A DNA stretch of 64,000 nucleotides, taken from Firmicutes bacterium HGW-Firmicutes-2. GTDB lineage: Bacteria > Bacillota > Clostridia > Lachnospirales > Vallitaleaceae. Where the stretch lies: positions 1 to 64,000 of the forward strand of contig PGZV01000006.1 in NCBI GenBank assembly GCA_002841495.1, written 5' to 3'. Position numbers and translations under genes: made by a program. This document shows, piece after piece, positions 44,178 to 62,308 of the stretch (within the stretch, counting starts at the first letter, position 1; every line of letters begins with the position of its first letter). The notes under the pieces were generated by a model, which was not told the DNA's origin, made no database searches, and saw only the letters and a program-made list of their open reading frames with translations.

Positions 44178-44344
44178 AGGTGACCTCCATAGGATGTAAT
44201 AAATAATAAGCCTCTACTTAGCGCATATAATGTACTTATATAAACAATTATACGCAAAGTAAAGGAAAATAACAAGGATTACACATATAAATATATTTAA
44301 CGTTATACAGCATAGCGGCTGTGGAAGGGTTTTCATGATAGCTC

Positions 44345-55936: not shown

Positions 55937-56033
55937 CACATACTCCTTAATATTCAATGTATCATTTTTACACTGCCTCTCATTATATAAAAAAAGACTT
56001 AAAGCGTCAACTGAATTAGACTATTATACATTA

Positions 56034-56082
56034 CATACAATATATAGCTACAAATGCATCTAAGATACCTATATATTGTATG
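56034..56082 (+). repeat. Intergenic dyad element, copy C
   Basis: A perfect 14-bp inverted repeat (CATACAATATATAG at 56034-56047, complement at 56069-56082) around a 21-base centre with the core GCATCTA. Outer arms equal those of copy A; the inner arms are changed and pair poorly. It lies in the 525-bp gap between queA and the next AraC gene. Confidence 0.65.
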
Positions 56083-56231
56083 TGCATCTGAAGAAATCCA
56101 GTTTTGCATACCAAGCAATATTAAAAAAACAAAAGTTTATAAATTTTTAATATAGAAATAATAAGAATACCCTTACATTATATCTATATTTGTAGTAAAA
56201 TATCAATATATACTATTACTCAACTTTCCAC

Positions 56232-56399
56232 ATGTCGAATTTCTTTAGAATGGTCGACCACTGGTTACTTTTGAAATCTAATTTCATGAACAATAATCAG
56301 ACTGGTTTACATGCCTACGCTAAAGTATCCTATGTGATCGTTGAGTTATTCGTGACCATGGCGGTATTATTACTTCTTAGTTCATCAATTTATACTTAA
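56232..56399 (+). CDS. Possible 55-residue single-helix protein
   Basis: An ATG frame of 55 codons between queA and the AraC gene ends in a hydrophobic helix (YVIVELFVTMAVLLLL). No ribosome binding site is visible, and I know no family. It could be a small membrane protein or chance. The rest of this gap shows only copy C of the dyad element and AT-rich promoter-like sequence. Confidence 0.2.
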   Translation: MSNFFRMVDHWLLLKSNFMNNNQTGLHAYAKVSYVIVELFVTMAVLLLLSSSIYT

Positions 56400-56461
56400 A
56401 ATCTATTTAAGGTCAGCAATTCATTTATTTCAGATTTTCATAGAAACGGAGTTGATCATGA

Positions 56462-57712
56462 ATGTATCAATTGTCCCATCTCGTAAAACAAAAAATATTA
56501 GATTTACCACTTATTGAGTCCCTCGCAAAGACATTATATTACGGTACAGGACTGTCGTTAACGGTTATAGATCAGAACCACAATAAGGTTTTCTCACATG
56601 GACCAAACGCACATGTGGATGATTTTTTGGAAGATATTTTTCACCCTTTCGTTGGTTTTGTAAAAGACACCATTAAAAACCATGGGAATGGCGTCTACAC
56701 CTATGACTCTGACTATGCCTTATCCTATCTTGTCACTGTCGTTGCAGATGCATCCAGCTATTATGGATCTTTATTACTTGGTCCATTCCTAACAAAAGAA
56801 GCCAATGAACATCTCATTAATGAAGTGATGCATGAGCAAAAATTTTCTATGTCGAAGCGAGAACAACTCAAAGACCTTTTCAATCTAATACCTATTCTCA
56901 GCTCTTCGCGAAATTATTACATACAACAACTGGTAGCCGCCATAGTGACCAACCCTCATGTAATTGATTTATATCCTGAAGCACACCTTACAGAGCTAAC
57001 CGAAGAAATGGTTGAAACCTTTGACCATGCTATTGAAATCGAAAAAACAGATCACAACCACGCACTCGAAGTACTCTTTCTAACCAAAGTGCAAAGTGGT
57101 GATATCGAAAAAGTCATTGATTTATATAATGAACACATCAAGGCTCAATATTTCAGCCAAACCTCACCCAACCATCTTCGAAATTCGAAGAACAAAGCTA
57201 TCGCTTTTTCAACATTACTATCTAGAACCATTATAACCGGTGGTGTTGAAGCTGAAAAATCCTTATCATTAGCTGAATATTACGCTCAGAAAATTGAGCA
57301 GTCACATAATTTTGAGGAACTCATCGACATCATTGAGCGCATGATTATCAAGTATACCAACAGTGTCTTACAGCTCTCTAATATTAACCATGTAAGTGTC
57401 ATCAAAAACGCTTCAAAATTTGTCCACTTACATCTTTCAGAGCCTATCCGGTTAAATGATGTAGCCAACTATGTCAATTTATCACCAAACTATTTTTCTT
57501 CTTTATTTAAAAGAGAAATGAACCTTTCCTTTGCGGATTACGTTAATCAAACCCGCGTCAAGGAAAGTCAATACCTACTTGAAACGACCAATTACTCGAT
57601 TTTGGATATTGCTATTTCAGTGGGCTACAACAATCAGAATTATTTTACAACCATCTTTAGAAAATTCACAGGTGTTACACCTAAGCAGTATAGAATGCGA
57701 AGTGCGAAGTAA
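56462..57712 (+). CDS. AraC-family transcriptional regulator with large N-terminal sensor
   Basis: The 416-residue regulator ends in two helix-turn-helix motifs (LNDVANYVNLSPNYFSSLFKREM and ILDIAISVGYNNQNYFTTIFRKF). The first 100 residues (LSLTVIDQNHNKVFSHGPN) look GAF/PAS-like, followed by about 200 helical residues, as in regulators resembling the output halves of Clostridial two-component AraC proteins. GGAG lies ten bases before the ATG. It is single, with a terminator directly after. Target and ligand are unknown. Confidence 0.88.
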   Translation: MYQLSHLVKQKILDLPLIESLAKTLYYGTGLSLTVIDQNHNKVFSHGPNAHVDDFLEDIFHPFVGFVKDTIKNHGNGVYTYDSDYALSYLVTVVADASSYYGSLLLGPFLTKEANEHLINEVMHEQKFSMSKREQLKDLFNLIPILSSSRNYYIQQLVAAIVTNPHVIDLYPEAHLTELTEEMVETFDHAIEIEKTDHNHALEVLFLTKVQSGDIEKVIDLYNEHIKAQYFSQTSPNHLRNSKNKAIAFSTLLSRTIITGGVEAEKSLSLAEYYAQKIEQSHNFEELIDIIERMIIKYTNSVLQLSNINHVSVIKNASKFVHLHLSEPIRLNDVANYVNLSPNYFSSLFKREMNLSFADYVNQTRVKESQYLLETTNYSILDIAISVGYNNQNYFTTIFRKFTGVTPKQYRMRSAK

Positions 57713-57743
57713 TGGTAAAAATATAACTAAAGTAAGTCAACCA

Positions 57744-57778
57744 AGTCTCTAAGTGAAAAATGCTTAGGGACTTTTTTT
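57744..57778 (+). terminator. Terminator of the AraC-family gene
   Basis: AGTCTCTAAG pairs (one G-U) with CTTAGGGACT, followed by seven T. Confidence 0.8.
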
Positions 57779-57867
57779 AGATGAAATTTGATTTACTTTT
57801 TACTCCCTCGTACAAGCTTGGGATAGAAAGAATGGGGTTTTAAGTGGGTCCCATGAAAACCCTTCCA

Positions 57868-57959
57868 CAGTATGTATAATTACGGTCTCCCGTTGGTGCA
57901 TCCATGCACCAAATGTCGACGGTCAGCATCCATGCTGACTAGCTCCATTACACATACTG
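57868..57959 (-). ncRNA. Multi-branched RNA-like structure 1 with two CAUGGAUG hairpins
   Basis: Outer arms CAGTATGTATAAT (57868-57880) and ATTACACATACTG (57947-57959) pair fully only as minus-strand RNA, where the single mismatch becomes G-U. Inside are three hairpins: 57922-57939 and 57893-57912, both with a TGGA apex on the minus strand (stems GTCAGCA and TTGGTGCA), and 57882-57893 with an ACGG/CCGT stem and a GAGA tetraloop on the minus strand. The GNRA loop and the G-U pair both favour a minus-strand RNA, perhaps the spoIID 3-prime region. A further GGGTTTT/AAAACCC stem lies at 57835-57862. Confidence 0.5.
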
Positions 57960-58053
57960 ATTCCAGGAACTTCATGGTCGATGTTGGCACACTCTGTTTT
58001 ATTGGCTGCTTTAGGGCGTAGAATATTTTTACTATCGCGAAACCGAATGAGGA

Positions 58054-58155
58054 AAGAAAAGGCGCTGATCAATCACAGTTCTACATGGATGTAGAATGTC
58101 CTTCATTTTTACATGGATGTAAAAAAGGAAGGATGATTGAGCAGTGCCTTTTCTT
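58054..58155 (+). ncRNA. Multi-branched RNA-like structure 2 with two CAUGGAUG hairpins
   Basis: A 22-bp outer stem (58054-58075 with 58134-58155; 20 direct pairs, one G-U on the plus strand, one mismatch) encloses two hairpins: TTCTACA-TGGA-TGTAGAA (58079-58096) and TTTTTACA-TGGA-TGTAAAAA (58106-58125), the second lengthened by TCCTTC/GAAGGA. The apex equals that of structure 1 but on the opposite strand, while all stems differ in sequence. The 12-base direct repeat GAGCAGTGCCTT occurs in the right arm and again at 58204, just after spoIID. Confidence 0.5.
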
Positions 58156-58213
58156 GACGAAATGACGATTACAACCTAGGGTTAAAATCAGTGAGTTGCT
58201 TTGAGCAGTGCCT

Positions 58214-59845
58214 TTATTTCACTTCAACACCTTTATAGTAATACTCCAATATATCCTTATAAGTATAATCTGCAAGTGCCATCCCTTTTGCTCCTGACTG
58301 ACTCATACCGACACCATGCCCATAACCAACACCAGCCAAAATAAACTTTCCGGTTTCTCCCGAAATCATCGGTTGATTTATGATGTTACCCGCGCTCATG
58401 ACAATGACTTGATCCTTCTGGCCAAGGAATTTTACTGCTTTTCCACTACTACTTATAACATAGGCATCACTGTAATCCACGACCCCAACATAGTTTTTAC
58501 CCGAAATAACTGAATGCCTCAAAAATGGTAGGTTTCCCGGTTTTATTAAAGTAAATTTTCGACTGTCCATACCCAACCACTGACGCATGGTTTCTTTTTT
58601 CAGAATATAAGTGCCACCGCTACCGATCACTTTTAGTTCAAGCACCCTACCTGCATCTGTATAACCCATTACTTCAAGATCTATAACAGAACCTATAGAT
58701 ATGTCTCTTTTGATCAATGCACTCTCAATCTCTGCCGGTGTGTAGGTCTTAATCCAAGGTGCTCTTGCCGGCTCAGTTTCATAAAGATCAGGCATACTTT
58801 TTAAATAAGGTACTGAAGCAGACCATACATGCTCACTGGCTTCTGTACGTCCTCCACTGGTTGAAAAGAAATAGGCAGGTATGACGGATCCATCATAATA
58901 TATCATCTTACCCTTTGTGCCATCCACTGCAACTGTTACCCTCCTATCCTCAACACCATAGCCTTTATAAACTTGAGAGTTCACTGTATCATCTAAATCA
59001 TAGGGCTCGTTGGGGAATTTTTTTGCTACTGTGACATAATAGATGGCAAAGGTACGAGCCGCTACGGCTTGCGCCTTAATACTCTCAATCGGCCAGGATG
59101 CATAGATTTCCGAAACGACAACACTATAGAGATAGTCTTCAATATCAACAATATTGACTGCTAAAAGTTTTTCCTTACCATAACGACCAATCTCAACTTT
59201 GCCTCGGTAAGTTGCTTTGCCAAGATTCAAGACAGATGCATCACCTATTTTATCATTGGTGCCGATGACCACCTTATGTAAACTGTTATCAAGAATTATA
59301 CCTTCTACTTGATCAAAGGTCATGATTATCCGTTCCTTGTTAGAAGGTGCTTCTAAGAAATGGATGTCATAGAGTGTGTCTATTTGATCCAGTGTCATTT
59401 GAACATCCACAGTTTCAACAAAGATTTTCCAAGTATGAATATCTATTAAACTGGGATATACAGTGAACCCATCTGCTTTTAATAAATCAGCCTTCGACTT
59501 AGCCGTCTCATAATCTTCATAAATATCTGCTGACATAATGTATGTAGTTATTGAAGGTTTGAATAAAAACATCTGACCTGCTGAGAAAATTGTTGATTCC
59601 GGCAACCAGATATCATTACTATAGAATCCTAATATAATTGATTTATTAAATACTTGAACTTGGTCCTGGTCTTTAAATTGCGTTACCAAACCAATCCTTA
59701 AGGTATCAATGTCTGCTTCTTTTCCCTTACTGCTAATATCCGTGATGTTCATAAAGGTCATCAAAAATGAAAGCATGACCATAGCATAGCTTATTCTCTT
59801 AAACCTTTTTATTTTTTCTGTACTGAAATATTTTTCTCTAATCAT
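58214..59845 (-). CDS. spoIID: SpoIID/LytB-domain cell-wall protein
   Basis: The 543-residue protein has one N-terminal membrane helix and an exported body. Residues about 65-190 hold a SPOR-like segment (YETAKSKADLLKADGFTVYP). The SpoIID domain follows: VDIEDYLYSVVVSEI with the catalytic Glu, IKAQAVAARTFAIYYV, YFFSTSGGRTE, and the end GYGHGVGMSQSGAKGMA. SpoIID is a lytic transglycosylase acting on peptidoglycan during engulfment; related LytB-type proteins act in vegetative cells, and this gene has no sporulation neighbour, so its exact role is open. GGGG precedes the ATG. Confidence 0.88.
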   Translation of the reverse strand: MIREKYFSTEKIKRFKRISYAMVMLSFLMTFMNITDISSKGKEADIDTLRIGLVTQFKDQDQVQVFNKSIILGFYSNDIWLPESTIFSAGQMFLFKPSITTYIMSADIYEDYETAKSKADLLKADGFTVYPSLIDIHTWKIFVETVDVQMTLDQIDTLYDIHFLEAPSNKERIIMTFDQVEGIILDNSLHKVVIGTNDKIGDASVLNLGKATYRGKVEIGRYGKEKLLAVNIVDIEDYLYSVVVSEIYASWPIESIKAQAVAARTFAIYYVTVAKKFPNEPYDLDDTVNSQVYKGYGVEDRRVTVAVDGTKGKMIYYDGSVIPAYFFSTSGGRTEASEHVWSASVPYLKSMPDLYETEPARAPWIKTYTPAEIESALIKRDISIGSVIDLEVMGYTDAGRVLELKVIGSGGTYILKKETMRQWLGMDSRKFTLIKPGNLPFLRHSVISGKNYVGVVDYSDAYVISSSGKAVKFLGQKDQVIVMSAGNIINQPMISGETGKFILAGVGYGHGVGMSQSGAKGMALADYTYKDILEYYYKGVEVK

Positions 59846-59917
59846 AAGAAACCCCTTTATAATGATGTCACTAATTATTATAAAGGGGTTTCTTCAAAAA
59901 AGCTAGTCCATATAAGC

Positions 59918-62308
59918 CTATTTTCTTAAGGTGGCACCGAGTTCATTCTCCAGACCCTTCAGGATCTTTTCCATGGTTTTGCTGATTTCTTTTTCTTGTA
60001 ACGTATGATCAGCTGCTCTAAATGATAGCGCATAGGCCACAGATTTGTATCCTACTTCTATCTGTTTACCCTTATAAACATCAAACAACTCCAGTTTCTC
60101 CAGTATTTTTCCGGAGCATCTTCGGATGACTTCTTCAATGTCACCAACCAATATTTCTTCCTTCACCAACATGGCAACGTCTCTATTGACCGCTGGGTAC
60201 CTCGGTACGGGTGTGTATTTATGGTCAAGTGTCGCTTCACCAATCAGATCTTCCATATCAATGACAGCAATATAAGCTTTATCATGAATATCGTATGCAT
60301 CGAGAACATCCGGATGCACTTCACCAATATAACCGATTTCTTTATTATTCAACATAACCTTGGCTTTTCGTCCAGGATGCAGGTATGATAATTCGATATT
60401 TGGATCCCATTTTGCTAAGTCAAGACAATTGAAGGCTTCAAATAAAGTTTCCAGAATACCTTTTAACTTGAAGAAATCACAGTCCCCATACATGCCAATC
60501 GTCAACTTCTGAGACTCTTTAGGCAATTCTTTAAGTGGAATGGCTTTAGGTTCATAAATGGTACCAATTTCATATAAACCAACCTTTTCATTTCTTTTAG
60601 CATAATTATTGGATAAAGCTTGGAGCATACCGTTAACCGTCGAAGTACGCATAACACTAAAATCTTCTCCAAGTGGGTTATCAATCTTCACCGCTACTCT
60701 TAGAAGACTATCCGGCGCAAGCTTTAACTTGTCATATACCTTCGGTGACTCAAAGCTATAAGTCATGGCTTCATTAAGACTACAATCTTCCATTATCTGT
60801 CTTGCTAGGTCTTCCATTCTTTGAGTAAAACTTCTTTTACCCACCGTTGGTGTTCCTGTTGCAAGGGTTGTGGGTAGACGGTCATAACCATAGAGTCTTG
60901 CCACTTCCTCAGCTAGGTCTGCTTCACATTCAATATCAGCTCTAAATGTAGGTGCCAAGATTTCTTTTTGATCTTCGTCAACCACAAACTCAAGACGTTT
61001 AAAATAGCTTACCATTTCTTCTTCAGAAATATTCGTTCCCAGCAGTTTATTAATATTCCCAACATTATAAGCCACTTTATTAGGCTTTCTATTGCTGTTA
61101 TTCACATCTATAGTACCTGCCATAACATGACCGGCACCTATCATTTCTGCCAGTTGGCAGGCACGTTCTATGGCAATTAGAGCCGTATTGGGGTCAAGAT
61201 GTTTTTCGAATTTTGTGGATGCATCTGTTCTAAGACCTATTTTTTTCGAGGTCTTTCGAATACTTGCCGGGTCAAAATTAGCTGCTTCAAGTAGTATCAT
61301 GCCTGTATGATCTTTGACCTTAGAACCTTCTCCACCCATCACGCCGGCCACACCAATAACTTCTTTTTCACCCGCTATGACCAACATGGTCTCATCCAAT
61401 TCTCTTTCTTCACCGTCAAGTGTCATCATTTTTTCTTGATCTTTGGCGCGTCTTACAATAATTTTCCCATGGGTAAGCTCTTCAAGATCATAAGCGTGCA
61501 TGGGCTGGCCCATTTCAACCATGACAAAGTTGGTTATATCCACTAGGTTATTGATAGGGCGTATACCGACAGATCTCAACCTGTCTTGCATCCATTTTGG
61601 AGAAGGCTTTATATCTACATCCACTAAAACTTTTGCAACAAACCGAGGGCATAAGTCGGTGGCAATAACTTCTACAGAAGCATGTTGGTTGATGTCACCT
61701 GCCACTTCATTATAACCGATTTCAGGATAGTGAAACTCTGTGTCGACGGTGGCTGCTGCTTCTCTTGCTATGCCCAGTAAACTAAAACAGTCCGGACGAT
61801 TTGATGTGATCTCAAATTCGACTATAGCATCATCCAATCCAAAAATAGGCTTTGCATCACTTCCGAGTGGATACTCACCTTTTATAATATAGATGCCATG
61901 TTCAGGTGCGTCGGGAAAATGATCCGGATCTAAACCCAACTCTTCTACTGAGCACATCATGCCGTTAGATGCTACACCTCTAAGCTTACCTTCTTTAATT
62001 TTCAAACCTTCAGCAAGGTTTGCACCCGGAAGTGCAACCGGCACCAAGTCTCCAACCTTCATGTTATCAGCACCTGTGACAATCTGAATGGTTTTATCTC
62101 CAACATCTACTTGGGTGACAACCAATTTATCTGCATCCGGATGTTTAACGATTTCAAGAACTCTGCCGACAACAACATCTGTAATGTTCTCACCTTTTTT
62201 TACTACAGAATCCACATTCGAACCGGACATGGTCATCTTTTCCGCAAATGTCTGTACATCACAATCTATTTTCACATATTCTCTTAACCAATTCATTGAT
62301 ACATTCAT
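59918..62308 (-). CDS. pheT: Phenylalanyl-tRNA synthetase, beta subunit
   Basis: The 796-residue subunit binds tRNA and edits mischarged tyrosine in the alpha2-beta2 enzyme. Order: N-terminal tRNA-binding OB domain (VVGRVLEIVKHPDADKLVVTQVDVG), B3/B4 editing domain (FEITSNRPDCFSLLGIAREAAA), B5, the catalytic-like core, and the C-terminal anticodon-binding FDX-ACB domain (PRYPAVNRDVAMLV). Length is standard for the long bacterial form. It lies 28 bp after pheS in one operon. AAGGAG precedes the ATG. Confidence 0.97.
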   Translation of the reverse strand: MNVSMNWLREYVKIDCDVQTFAEKMTMSGSNVDSVVKKGENITDVVVGRVLEIVKHPDADKLVVTQVDVGDKTIQIVTGADNMKVGDLVPVALPGANLAEGLKIKEGKLRGVASNGMMCSVEELGLDPDHFPDAPEHGIYIIKGEYPLGSDAKPIFGLDDAIVEFEITSNRPDCFSLLGIAREAAATVDTEFHYPEIGYNEVAGDINQHASVEVIATDLCPRFVAKVLVDVDIKPSPKWMQDRLRSVGIRPINNLVDITNFVMVEMGQPMHAYDLEELTHGKIIVRRAKDQEKMMTLDGEERELDETMLVIAGEKEVIGVAGVMGGEGSKVKDHTGMILLEAANFDPASIRKTSKKIGLRTDASTKFEKHLDPNTALIAIERACQLAEMIGAGHVMAGTIDVNNSNRKPNKVAYNVGNINKLLGTNISEEEMVSYFKRLEFVVDEDQKEILAPTFRADIECEADLAEEVARLYGYDRLPTTLATGTPTVGKRSFTQRMEDLARQIMEDCSLNEAMTYSFESPKVYDKLKLAPDSLLRVAVKIDNPLGEDFSVMRTSTVNGMLQALSNNYAKRNEKVGLYEIGTIYEPKAIPLKELPKESQKLTIGMYGDCDFFKLKGILETLFEAFNCLDLAKWDPNIELSYLHPGRKAKVMLNNKEIGYIGEVHPDVLDAYDIHDKAYIAVIDMEDLIGEATLDHKYTPVPRYPAVNRDVAMLVKEEILVGDIEEVIRRCSGKILEKLELFDVYKGKQIEVGYKSVAYALSFRAADHTLQEKEISKTMEKILKGLENELGATLRK

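Follow-up and report, generated by a model that had tools for sequence, protein, structure and literature searches.

In the window, by which we mean the entire 64,000-nt stretch of DNA analyzed here, positions 57830-58160 occupy the gap between an AraC-type gene (56462-57712, plus strand) and spoIID (58214-59845, minus strand), both gene names being taken from the initial annotation. Two structures in inverted orientation had been proposed to lie in this gap, and folding bears the proposal out: when the segments 57830-57990 (minus strand) and 58035-58215 (plus strand) were each compared with 200 dinucleotide shuffles, structure 1 (57847-57987, minus strand) reached z scores of -3.5 as DNA and -4.0 as RNA, and structure 2 (58037-58166, plus strand) a z score of -7.7 as DNA, with 0 of 200 shuffles equaling the native fold in each case. 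Structure 1, hereafter module M1, is delimited by folds, covariation, and strand tallies and comprises a closing stem and two GGA-loop hairpins (GGTCCCATGAAAACCC...CATGGTCGATGTTGG on the plus strand). Its minus-strand helices are an outer stem, P0 (57851-57857 with 57971-57977; alignment columns 5-11 with 128-134); the closing stem proper, P1 (57868-57879 with 57948-57959), which covariation and ortholog pairs show to be the most variable helix, with compensation; and the hairpins P2 (57893-57912, minus-strand apex GUGCAUGGAUGCAC) and P3 (57922-57939, minus-strand apex CAGCAUGGAUGCUG), both defined by covariation and a survey of loops, and P3 also by comparison with the folded flagellin leader, whose hairpin reads CAGCAUGGAAGCUG. 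Structure 2, or module M2, was defined by its fold and by covariation; on the plus strand, its closing stem (58054-58075 with 58134-58155) surrounds two GGA-loop hairpins supported by covariation and the loop survey, namely hairpin a (58078-58097, GUUCUACAUGGAUGUAGAAU, apex ACANGGAUGU) and hairpin b (58099-58133, tip UUUUUACAUGGAUGUAAAA). The two modules are joined by a linker (57988-58036, assigned to neither strand), which was compared with transposase 3′ ends as described below, and alignment with the orthologous copy L101 places at 58160-58177 (plus strand) the site of a third module, M3, a covarying hairpin of ~85 nt that is deleted in the window. On the other side, 3′ of the AraC-type gene, an intrinsic terminator, M0 (57743-57773, plus strand), was recognized by a terminator scan and aligned with the orthologous site and with L069, an ISL3 element of a congener, in which the M0 hairpin and a similar spacer also lie between the left inverted repeat and M1.

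Several details of the initial annotation can be refined. Of the closing stems described as 13 and 22 bp, the former stands, its 13 pairs being continued outward by CCATGAA/TTCATGG, whereas the latter consists of 21 pairs and one mismatch. The CA-UGGA-UG apex is present at the tip of all four hairpins (CAUGGAUG apices). The GNRA loop (CGG-GAGA-CCG, minus strand) that had been adduced for structure 1 is not conserved, being found only in the window copy among 20 aligned copies; covariation in this region favors a different pairing, with columns 40 and 73 occupied by UA in 12 and by CG in 8 of the 20 copies. Rfam covariance models produced a single match to positions 56000-60000 of the window (E values up to 5), irrelevant and outside the element, and, at the gathering threshold on loci L213, L104, L245, L083, L079, and L231, only a c-di-GMP-I riboswitch beside the L213 element. 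With no Rfam family matched by the element, assignment to a known RNA family was rejected. The riboswitch itself (L213:3734-3820, minus strand, 85.9 bits) is located just outside one copy of an ISLre2 element in genome G003 of the same genus.

The stretch in the window is one copy of a dispersed modular repeat, a conclusion that, together with its covarying folds and its association with transposons, we consider practically certain. A BLAST search of its own genome (G000; 3.52 Mb in 35 contigs) at E ≤ 10 yielded 74 pieces, which we grouped into 40 sites including the window, that is, many dispersed, intergenic, palindromic copies, as in REP-type repeats. M1 is about 141 nt long, or up to about 218 nt with an extra long hairpin, P4; M2 measures about 129 nt, and M3 is a hairpin of 85 nt. 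Sites with more than one module have them in the order M1-M2-M3, and some copies are flanked by additional M1 pieces, partial or inverted; the window copy is devoid of M3, and its orthologue in G003, L101, retains all three. A covariance model of M2 (R2) also matches the minus strand of the M1-type elements L083, L084, L076, and L087, so that M1 and M2 represent one fold in inverted arrangement. Blocks have been exchanged among copies, as orthologues often differ in the type of P2/P3 stem or in P4 (six ortholog pairs aligned base by base). At L037, L039, L042, L045, and L017, a full M1 is followed, ~20-36 bases on, by a second, truncated M1 with the same (left) end preserved. Elsewhere in the window, sequence comparison detected a fragment resembling the left end of M1 (GGTTATAG GAGCTATCATGAAAACCCTTCCACAG; 44323-44342, minus strand) directly behind a stop codon, which is probably a truncated M1 relic. 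A second dispersed, hairpin-rich repeat (...GGAAAGGTCCTTGACGTATTCTGCC...TACTAAAGTATGACTTTCCT...) was observed at L085, L108 (inside M2), L024, and L231:405-525; it is inserted into M2 in some copies and also occurs upstream of fliW.

The distribution of the repeat is narrow. At E ≤ 0.01, the M1 covariance model (R1) had 43 matches in G000, 57 in G003, 30 in G001, and 25 in G002, all four belonging to the genus Petrocella (Vallitaleaceae, Lachnospirales), the genome under study being marine; beyond the genus, 5 matches were found in G004, 2 in G013, and 1 each in G008 and G015, with 14 of 22 family genomes having none. Under stricter filters, the model had no match at E ≤ 0.001 in 37 genomes from other families of the order. 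The matches listed included Petrocella sp. FN5, the metagenome-assembled genome (MAG) HGW-Firmicutes-3, and one Vallitaleaceae MAG; the many single matches in other phyla among those listed we take for chance. An origin from a phage or plasmid was rejected, there being no DNA match in the phage or plasmid collection searched, and searches of open-license papers, at the level of titles and opening lines of abstracts, returned no earlier description of the repeat.

Covariation, the absence of which the initial annotation had named as grounds for dismissing an RNA, is present in all three modules. For M1, 9 of 40 pairs were changed on both sides among 20 copies, a value equaled by 0 of 500 shuffles, although one of the five measures in this test, the number of further pair types, was reached by 54 of 500 shuffles. 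Among 89 copies, 33 of 40 pairs were changed on both sides (0 of 500 shuffles), and 94.4% of cells were paired compared to 26-48% when the pairing was slid, in an alignment that was fitted to the model and hence leans toward it. For M2, both sides had changed in 9 of 43 pairs (13 copies) and, in the larger set of 39 copies, in 13 of 42; for M3, this was true of 7 of 29 pairs in 13 copies, with 0 of 500 shuffles equaling each; the large M1 alignment (84 loci) and the M2 set (39 loci), as well as the 36 loci used for placement in G003 below, are selections from the available loci. Changes between orthologues point in the same direction. Among 20 of the 28 ortholog pairs, P1 has undergone 17 compensated double changes vs. 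11 single and 1 double breaking changes, and 24 single changes of the G.U type, 21 of which yield G.U on the minus strand and 3 on the plus strand (binomial P = 3 × 10⁻⁴). Over all M1 helices of the ortholog pairs, the minus vs. plus split is 27:13, mostly owing to P1, and the P3 counts (15 single breaks) are affected by inserts. Some of the stem change between orthologues stems from exchange of blocks between copies. The structure of M1, M2, and M3 is thus under selection.

The assignment of structure 1 to the minus and structure 2 to the plus strand, originally made from G-U pairs, holds across aligned copies. When read on the plus strand, structure 1 contains 21 A.C vs. 5 G.T cells in 20 copies, and structure 2 contains 15 G.T vs. 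0 A.C cells in 13 copies; for M3, the tally in 13 copies is 31 vs. 3 cells in favor of the plus strand. The larger sets are weaker and agree in direction, with 99 vs. 38 cells for M1 (88 copies, one of the 89 rows, the opposite-strand match L013:3175-3245, having been dropped) and 56 vs. 20 for M2 (39 copies); the small-set tallies and the 88-copy M1 tally omit one loop pair.

The part of the hairpin loops that persists is the GGA, as in CsrA-binding sites. It is retained in 85 of 87 P2 hairpins and 73 of 74 resolved P3 hairpins of M1 (P2 is missing from one row, and P3 could not be resolved in 14 rows that have an insert after it, each of them with a GGA somewhere in the stretch), and in 36 of 39 and 39 of 39 hairpins of M2, counts that are not independent because the copies share ancestry and exchange sequence. 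M1 loops include UGGA, AGGA, AGGAA, AGGAC, AGGGA, AAGGA, ACGGA, and others, such that loop length varies and GGA is retained. Better evidence comes from the other genera and from the ISLre2 branch, whose stems differ. According to passages of PMC4347634, the consensus of CsrA ligands obtained by SELEX is RUACARGGAUGU, in which ACA and GGA are invariant. The ISLre2-type P3 hairpin (L213, L217, and L222) contains AUACARGGAUGU, a match in 12 of 12 positions, and hairpin a of M2 contains UACAUGGAUGUA in most copies and UACAGGGAUGUA in 4 of 39. The tips of Petrocella M1 are mostly GCA-NGGA, falling short of the SELEX ACA, and the full 12-mer occurs 0 times in the 13.0 kb of elements at the 40 sites. 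Within element limits set by us, ACANGGAUGU occurs 29 times in these 13.0 kb vs. 4 times in the surrounding 297 kb (both strands), and ACARGGAUGU 2 vs. 4 times, respectively.

A search for csrA and fliW, suggested in the initial annotation, located both: G000 encodes a single CsrA (E = 7 × 10⁻²⁶), the gene being situated between fliW (PF02623, E = 1.3 × 10⁻³⁸) and a flagellin gene. Phylogenetic co-occurrence of csrA and M1 is uninformative as a test, given that csrA is nearly universal (21 of 22 family genomes), with M1 found in only 8 of the 22. The flagellin leader is an expected target of CsrA, and in G000 it folds into a hairpin, UGCCAGC-AUGGAA-GCUGGCA, accompanied by a GGA in the ribosome-binding region. 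The leader hairpin UGCCAGC-AUGGAA-GCUGGYA is found in all four Petrocella genomes (the G002 contig ends soon after it), and its core, CAGC-AUGGAA-GCUG, is near-identical to the P3 hairpin of M1. In G012, from another genus, the leader hairpin has a different stem (GGCA-AGGA-UGCC); among three further genomes, all with M1, no GGA hairpin was called in the flagellin leader of G004 and G008, and G013 had a GGA loop only elsewhere. As described in parts of PMC7652899, CsrA of Bacillus subtilis represses hag through two sites in the flagellin leader, and the CsrA antagonist described in Firmicutes is the protein FliW; in parts of PMC8523840, the predicted site BS1 of Clostridioides difficile fliC contains ACAAGGATGT, the same ten letters as in the ISLre2-type P3 hairpin. 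The repeat resembles these flagellin leaders in presenting GGA within a hairpin loop and differs from them in context: a leader site blocks translation from its position at the beginning of a single mRNA, whereas the repeat consists of paired predicted hairpins in transposase 3′ untranslated regions and at dozens of gene ends. A CsrB-like small RNA (sRNA) is mentioned for B. subtilis in a passage of PMC4347634, its role being unsettled. The idea of a CsrA-binding RNA put forward in the initial annotation thus gains from csrA and fliW, the leader hairpin, the retention of GGA, and the SELEX match in one branch, whereas its variant of a sponge sRNA is not supported, as discussed below. Judging from these sequence features, CsrA probably binds at least some of the hairpins; a decoy role of consequence for the cell is possible but doubtful.

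The association with transposons is apparent in G003, where four nearly identical repeats of 1.69 kb (L069-L072), together with a fifth, L104, belong to the ISL3 family, with a transposase matching PF01610 (E = 1.6 × 10⁻⁷³) as well as NF033550, imperfect inverted repeats of ~25 bp, and 8-bp target duplications in all five copies; the transposase frame is split in three of the five. On the coding strand, the transposase stop codon is followed by M1 and, in L069, then by the M0 terminator hairpin; M2 and M3 are absent. L069, with P4, and L104, without it, encode identical transposase proteins and carry different versions of M1. These elements are alike to known members of the ISL3 family in transposase, inverted repeats, and 8-bp duplications, and differ by the covarying GGA double-hairpin domain. 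A relative in G004, with 69% amino acid identity and an alignment extending through to the C terminus, shows, directly after the stop, two hairpins on a closing stem of 19 pairs (z = -8.8), with AGGA in one loop and ACGAC, devoid of GGA, in the other. The linkers of L010, L016, L019, and L023 (4 of 12 examined) match about the last 16 codons of the ISL3 transposase (scores of 51-69 vs. shuffle maxima of 22-28), all four ending at the same base; the other eight, including that of the window, are not above their own shuffle maxima. Because the G004 relative aligns through to the C terminus, these codons are native to the transposase, and the M1-linker part of composite copies therefore very probably comes from such an ISL3 element with loss of the transposase gene. 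This transposase had no match in the 35 contigs of G000, in a search run without a positive control, and the left inverted repeat is found at 1 of its 40 sites (L044) and the right one at none (up to 6 mismatches in 25).

A second, unrelated type of carrier consists of five copies of an ISLre2 element in G003 (L213-L217; 1.94 kb, 97.8-99.9% identity), the transposase of which was identified by NF033529 and, as UPF0236, by PF06782. Alike in these matches to the ISLre2 family, the element carries an M1 domain, like that of the ISL3 element in AAAACCCTTCCA...TTCCAGGAACTT, 5-40 nt behind the transposase; at least two copies have split frames. Within these insertion sequences (ISs), M1 occupies an internal position 150-180 bp from the IS end. 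In G000, L222 is a solo end of an ISLre2 element (91% identity over 369 bases). The GGA double hairpin is not general among ISL3 elements, a notion rejected on the basis of four distant ones (about 30% amino acid identity; 4 of 25 listed of 941 records) that lack it. One of these, on a Geobacillus plasmid (L255), has a long stable hairpin behind the transposase stop (z = -7.8) without GGA loops, and the other three (two from Pseudomonadota and one from Desulfuromonadia) lack GGA loops as well, with z scores of -1.7 to -2.7. Structured 3′ ends of other kinds, like that of L255, may exist in some ISL3 elements. To our knowledge, no RNA partner has been described for the ISL3 or ISLre2 family.

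The copies lie mostly at gene ends. With genes taken as script-called open reading frames (ORFs) of at least 80 codons, the left neighbor is on the plus strand at 36 of 40 sites in G000 (33 of the 35 bearing M1, partial M1 included), the configurations being +- at 19, ++ at 17, -- at 4, and -+ at none; in G003, the left gene is on the plus strand at 33 of 36 sites examined (+- 23, ++ 10, -+ 2, and -- 1). M2 occurs at 11 of 19 convergent sites vs. 3 of 17 ++ sites, an excess with a Fisher P of 0.019. Between convergent genes, the right-hand message, in this case that of spoIID, would contain the GGA strand of M1 at its 3′ end; the one terminator-like site that the scan of the window gave on the minus strand (57683-57669) is located beyond M1. 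Promoter-like sites in the window number 3 vs. a shuffled mean of 1.5 (SD 1.3), one lying inside M1 on the plus strand, and inspection of the linker by eye disclosed no conserved promoter facing M1. In G013 (L083) and G004 (L081), ORFs read as uvrB and ileS are preceded, at distances of about 81 and 89 nt, by M1-type structures on the coding strand, which could be leaders of these genes.

Flank alignments place an element at the orthologous position in G003 for 28 of the 40 sites. Twelve sites are without a partner among the G003 loci compared, and all nine that were queried (L028, L030, and L046 being left out) could be located. The element is in fact present at L016 and L020; M1 remnants are kept at L034, L035, and L037, indicating losses rather than new insertions; L038 is nearly clean, between TAATAG repeats; and the flanks of L019, L021, and L031 are replaced. 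Solo copies had no target duplication that could be defined. At the L016/L219 site, the G003 element is inverted relative to G000 with both flanks collinear, which represents an in-place inversion, perhaps via the inverted M1/M2 folds, or a second insertion.

This placement is what would be expected if the modules were general 3′-end RNA structures that protect message ends or insulate bidirectionally, with GGA loops that bind another factor or are merely stable. The position of 33 of 35 M1-bearing copies behind a plus-strand gene, with +- and ++ dominating and not one divergent site among 40, the similar pattern in G003 with only two divergent sites, and the orthologous retention at 28 sites, implying function or tolerance at gene ends, all agree with such a role, which nevertheless appears unlikely: it leaves unexplained why GGA is kept amid variable loop lengths and flanks and why the apex is shared with the flagellin leader, and the terminator scan of the window called no terminator at the modules, the folds of M1, M2, and M3 having no T tract directly after them. 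The strongest point against any general RNA function is that, in 14 of the 35 M1-bearing copies, where both neighbors are on the plus strand and only M1 is present, the GGA strand is antisense to both neighbors, unless there is antisense transcription or selection against the sense orientation. A purely DNA-based explanation, in which a non-autonomous, MITE-like element uses the folds as single-stranded DNA for movement or recombination, would account for the ISL3 derivation, the left inverted repeat at L044, the remnant of the parent transposase gene in 4 of 12 linkers, the block exchange, the L016/L219 inversion, and an orientation fixed relative to the upstream gene (16 ++ vs. 2 --; P = 0.0013). 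We regard it as rather improbable, considering that IS inverted repeats persist at only 1 of 40 sites, that ISL3-type DDE transposases act on double-stranded ends whereas M1 is internal, that M1 occupies the same position behind two unrelated transposases, and that three of the nine located sites without M1 in G003 are losses that left remnants behind, not fresh insertions. In view of the orientation bias, we also considered an attC-like site recognized by a tyrosine recombinase, with its bottom strand folded and a position behind genes; nothing specific favored it.

The mobile palindromic repeat that the initial annotation named as its main alternative, with hundreds of copies beside a RAYT gene, proved correct insofar as the copies are dispersed and derived from mobile elements, but they number in the tens, and the RAYT part fails. 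Like REP/REPIN and MITE sequences, the repeat is short, structured, dispersed, and mostly located at gene ends, and its modules M1 and M2 share a single fold in opposite orientations; unlike them, it has no RAYT, its IS inverted repeats are absent from nearly all solo copies, and its covarying folds are strand-specific. The Y1_Tnp domain (PF01797) had no match in G000 (35 contigs, 98% complete), with 5 of 14 control genomes positive, and on this basis mobilization by a RAYT transposase was rejected as exceedingly improbable. Very little also speaks for an autonomous sponge sRNA of the CsrB/RsmZ type, even if GGA hairpins and csrA are both present. CsrB and RsmZ present multiple stem-borne GGA hairpins that suit CsrA dimers, whereas a copy of the repeat offers only two on each strand; neither a conserved promoter or terminator nor a discrete sRNA gene was recognized, and ~40 copies dispersed on 3′ flanks are unlike one or a few sRNA genes.

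On balance, we lean toward the explanation that the stretch belongs to a multicopy, IS-derived repeat, the M1 and M2 RNA domains of which are bound by CsrA. Under this explanation, M1 would form part of the 3′ untranslated region of transposase messages; it lies 5-40 nt past the stop codon, on the coding strand, both in an ISL3-family element that was active recently and in an unrelated ISLre2-family element of the congener. Solo and composite copies (M1-linker-M2-M3) would have arisen as the transposase gene was lost and copies exchanged sequence, and these came to lie mostly at the 3′ ends of host genes, many of them before the Petrocella species split. With two GGA-loop hairpins on one closing stem, M1 and M2 would each suit one CsrA dimer. 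On the transposon message, CsrA might restrain or stabilize the transcript; transcribed copies elsewhere, for example, in the 3′ end of the spoIID message, might serve as CsrA binding sites or decoys. Transcription of the copies, their binding by CsrA, and a regulatory effect are what we infer from sequence comparison.

In its furthest extension, which we offer tentatively, two unrelated transposon families of a Firmicute would carry a CsrA-decoy RNA domain in their transposase mRNAs and would have seeded dozens of copies at gene ends, forming a transposon-borne RNA network that titrates CsrA beside the protein antagonist FliW. The analysis already shows that two families of elements carry a structured RNA domain downstream of the transposase gene. 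If the extended reading is correct, paired CsrA-type hairpins on a mobile RNA domain would add an RNA layer to the FliW-CsrA circuit and would link that circuit to transposon control, with ~40 candidate sites per genome.
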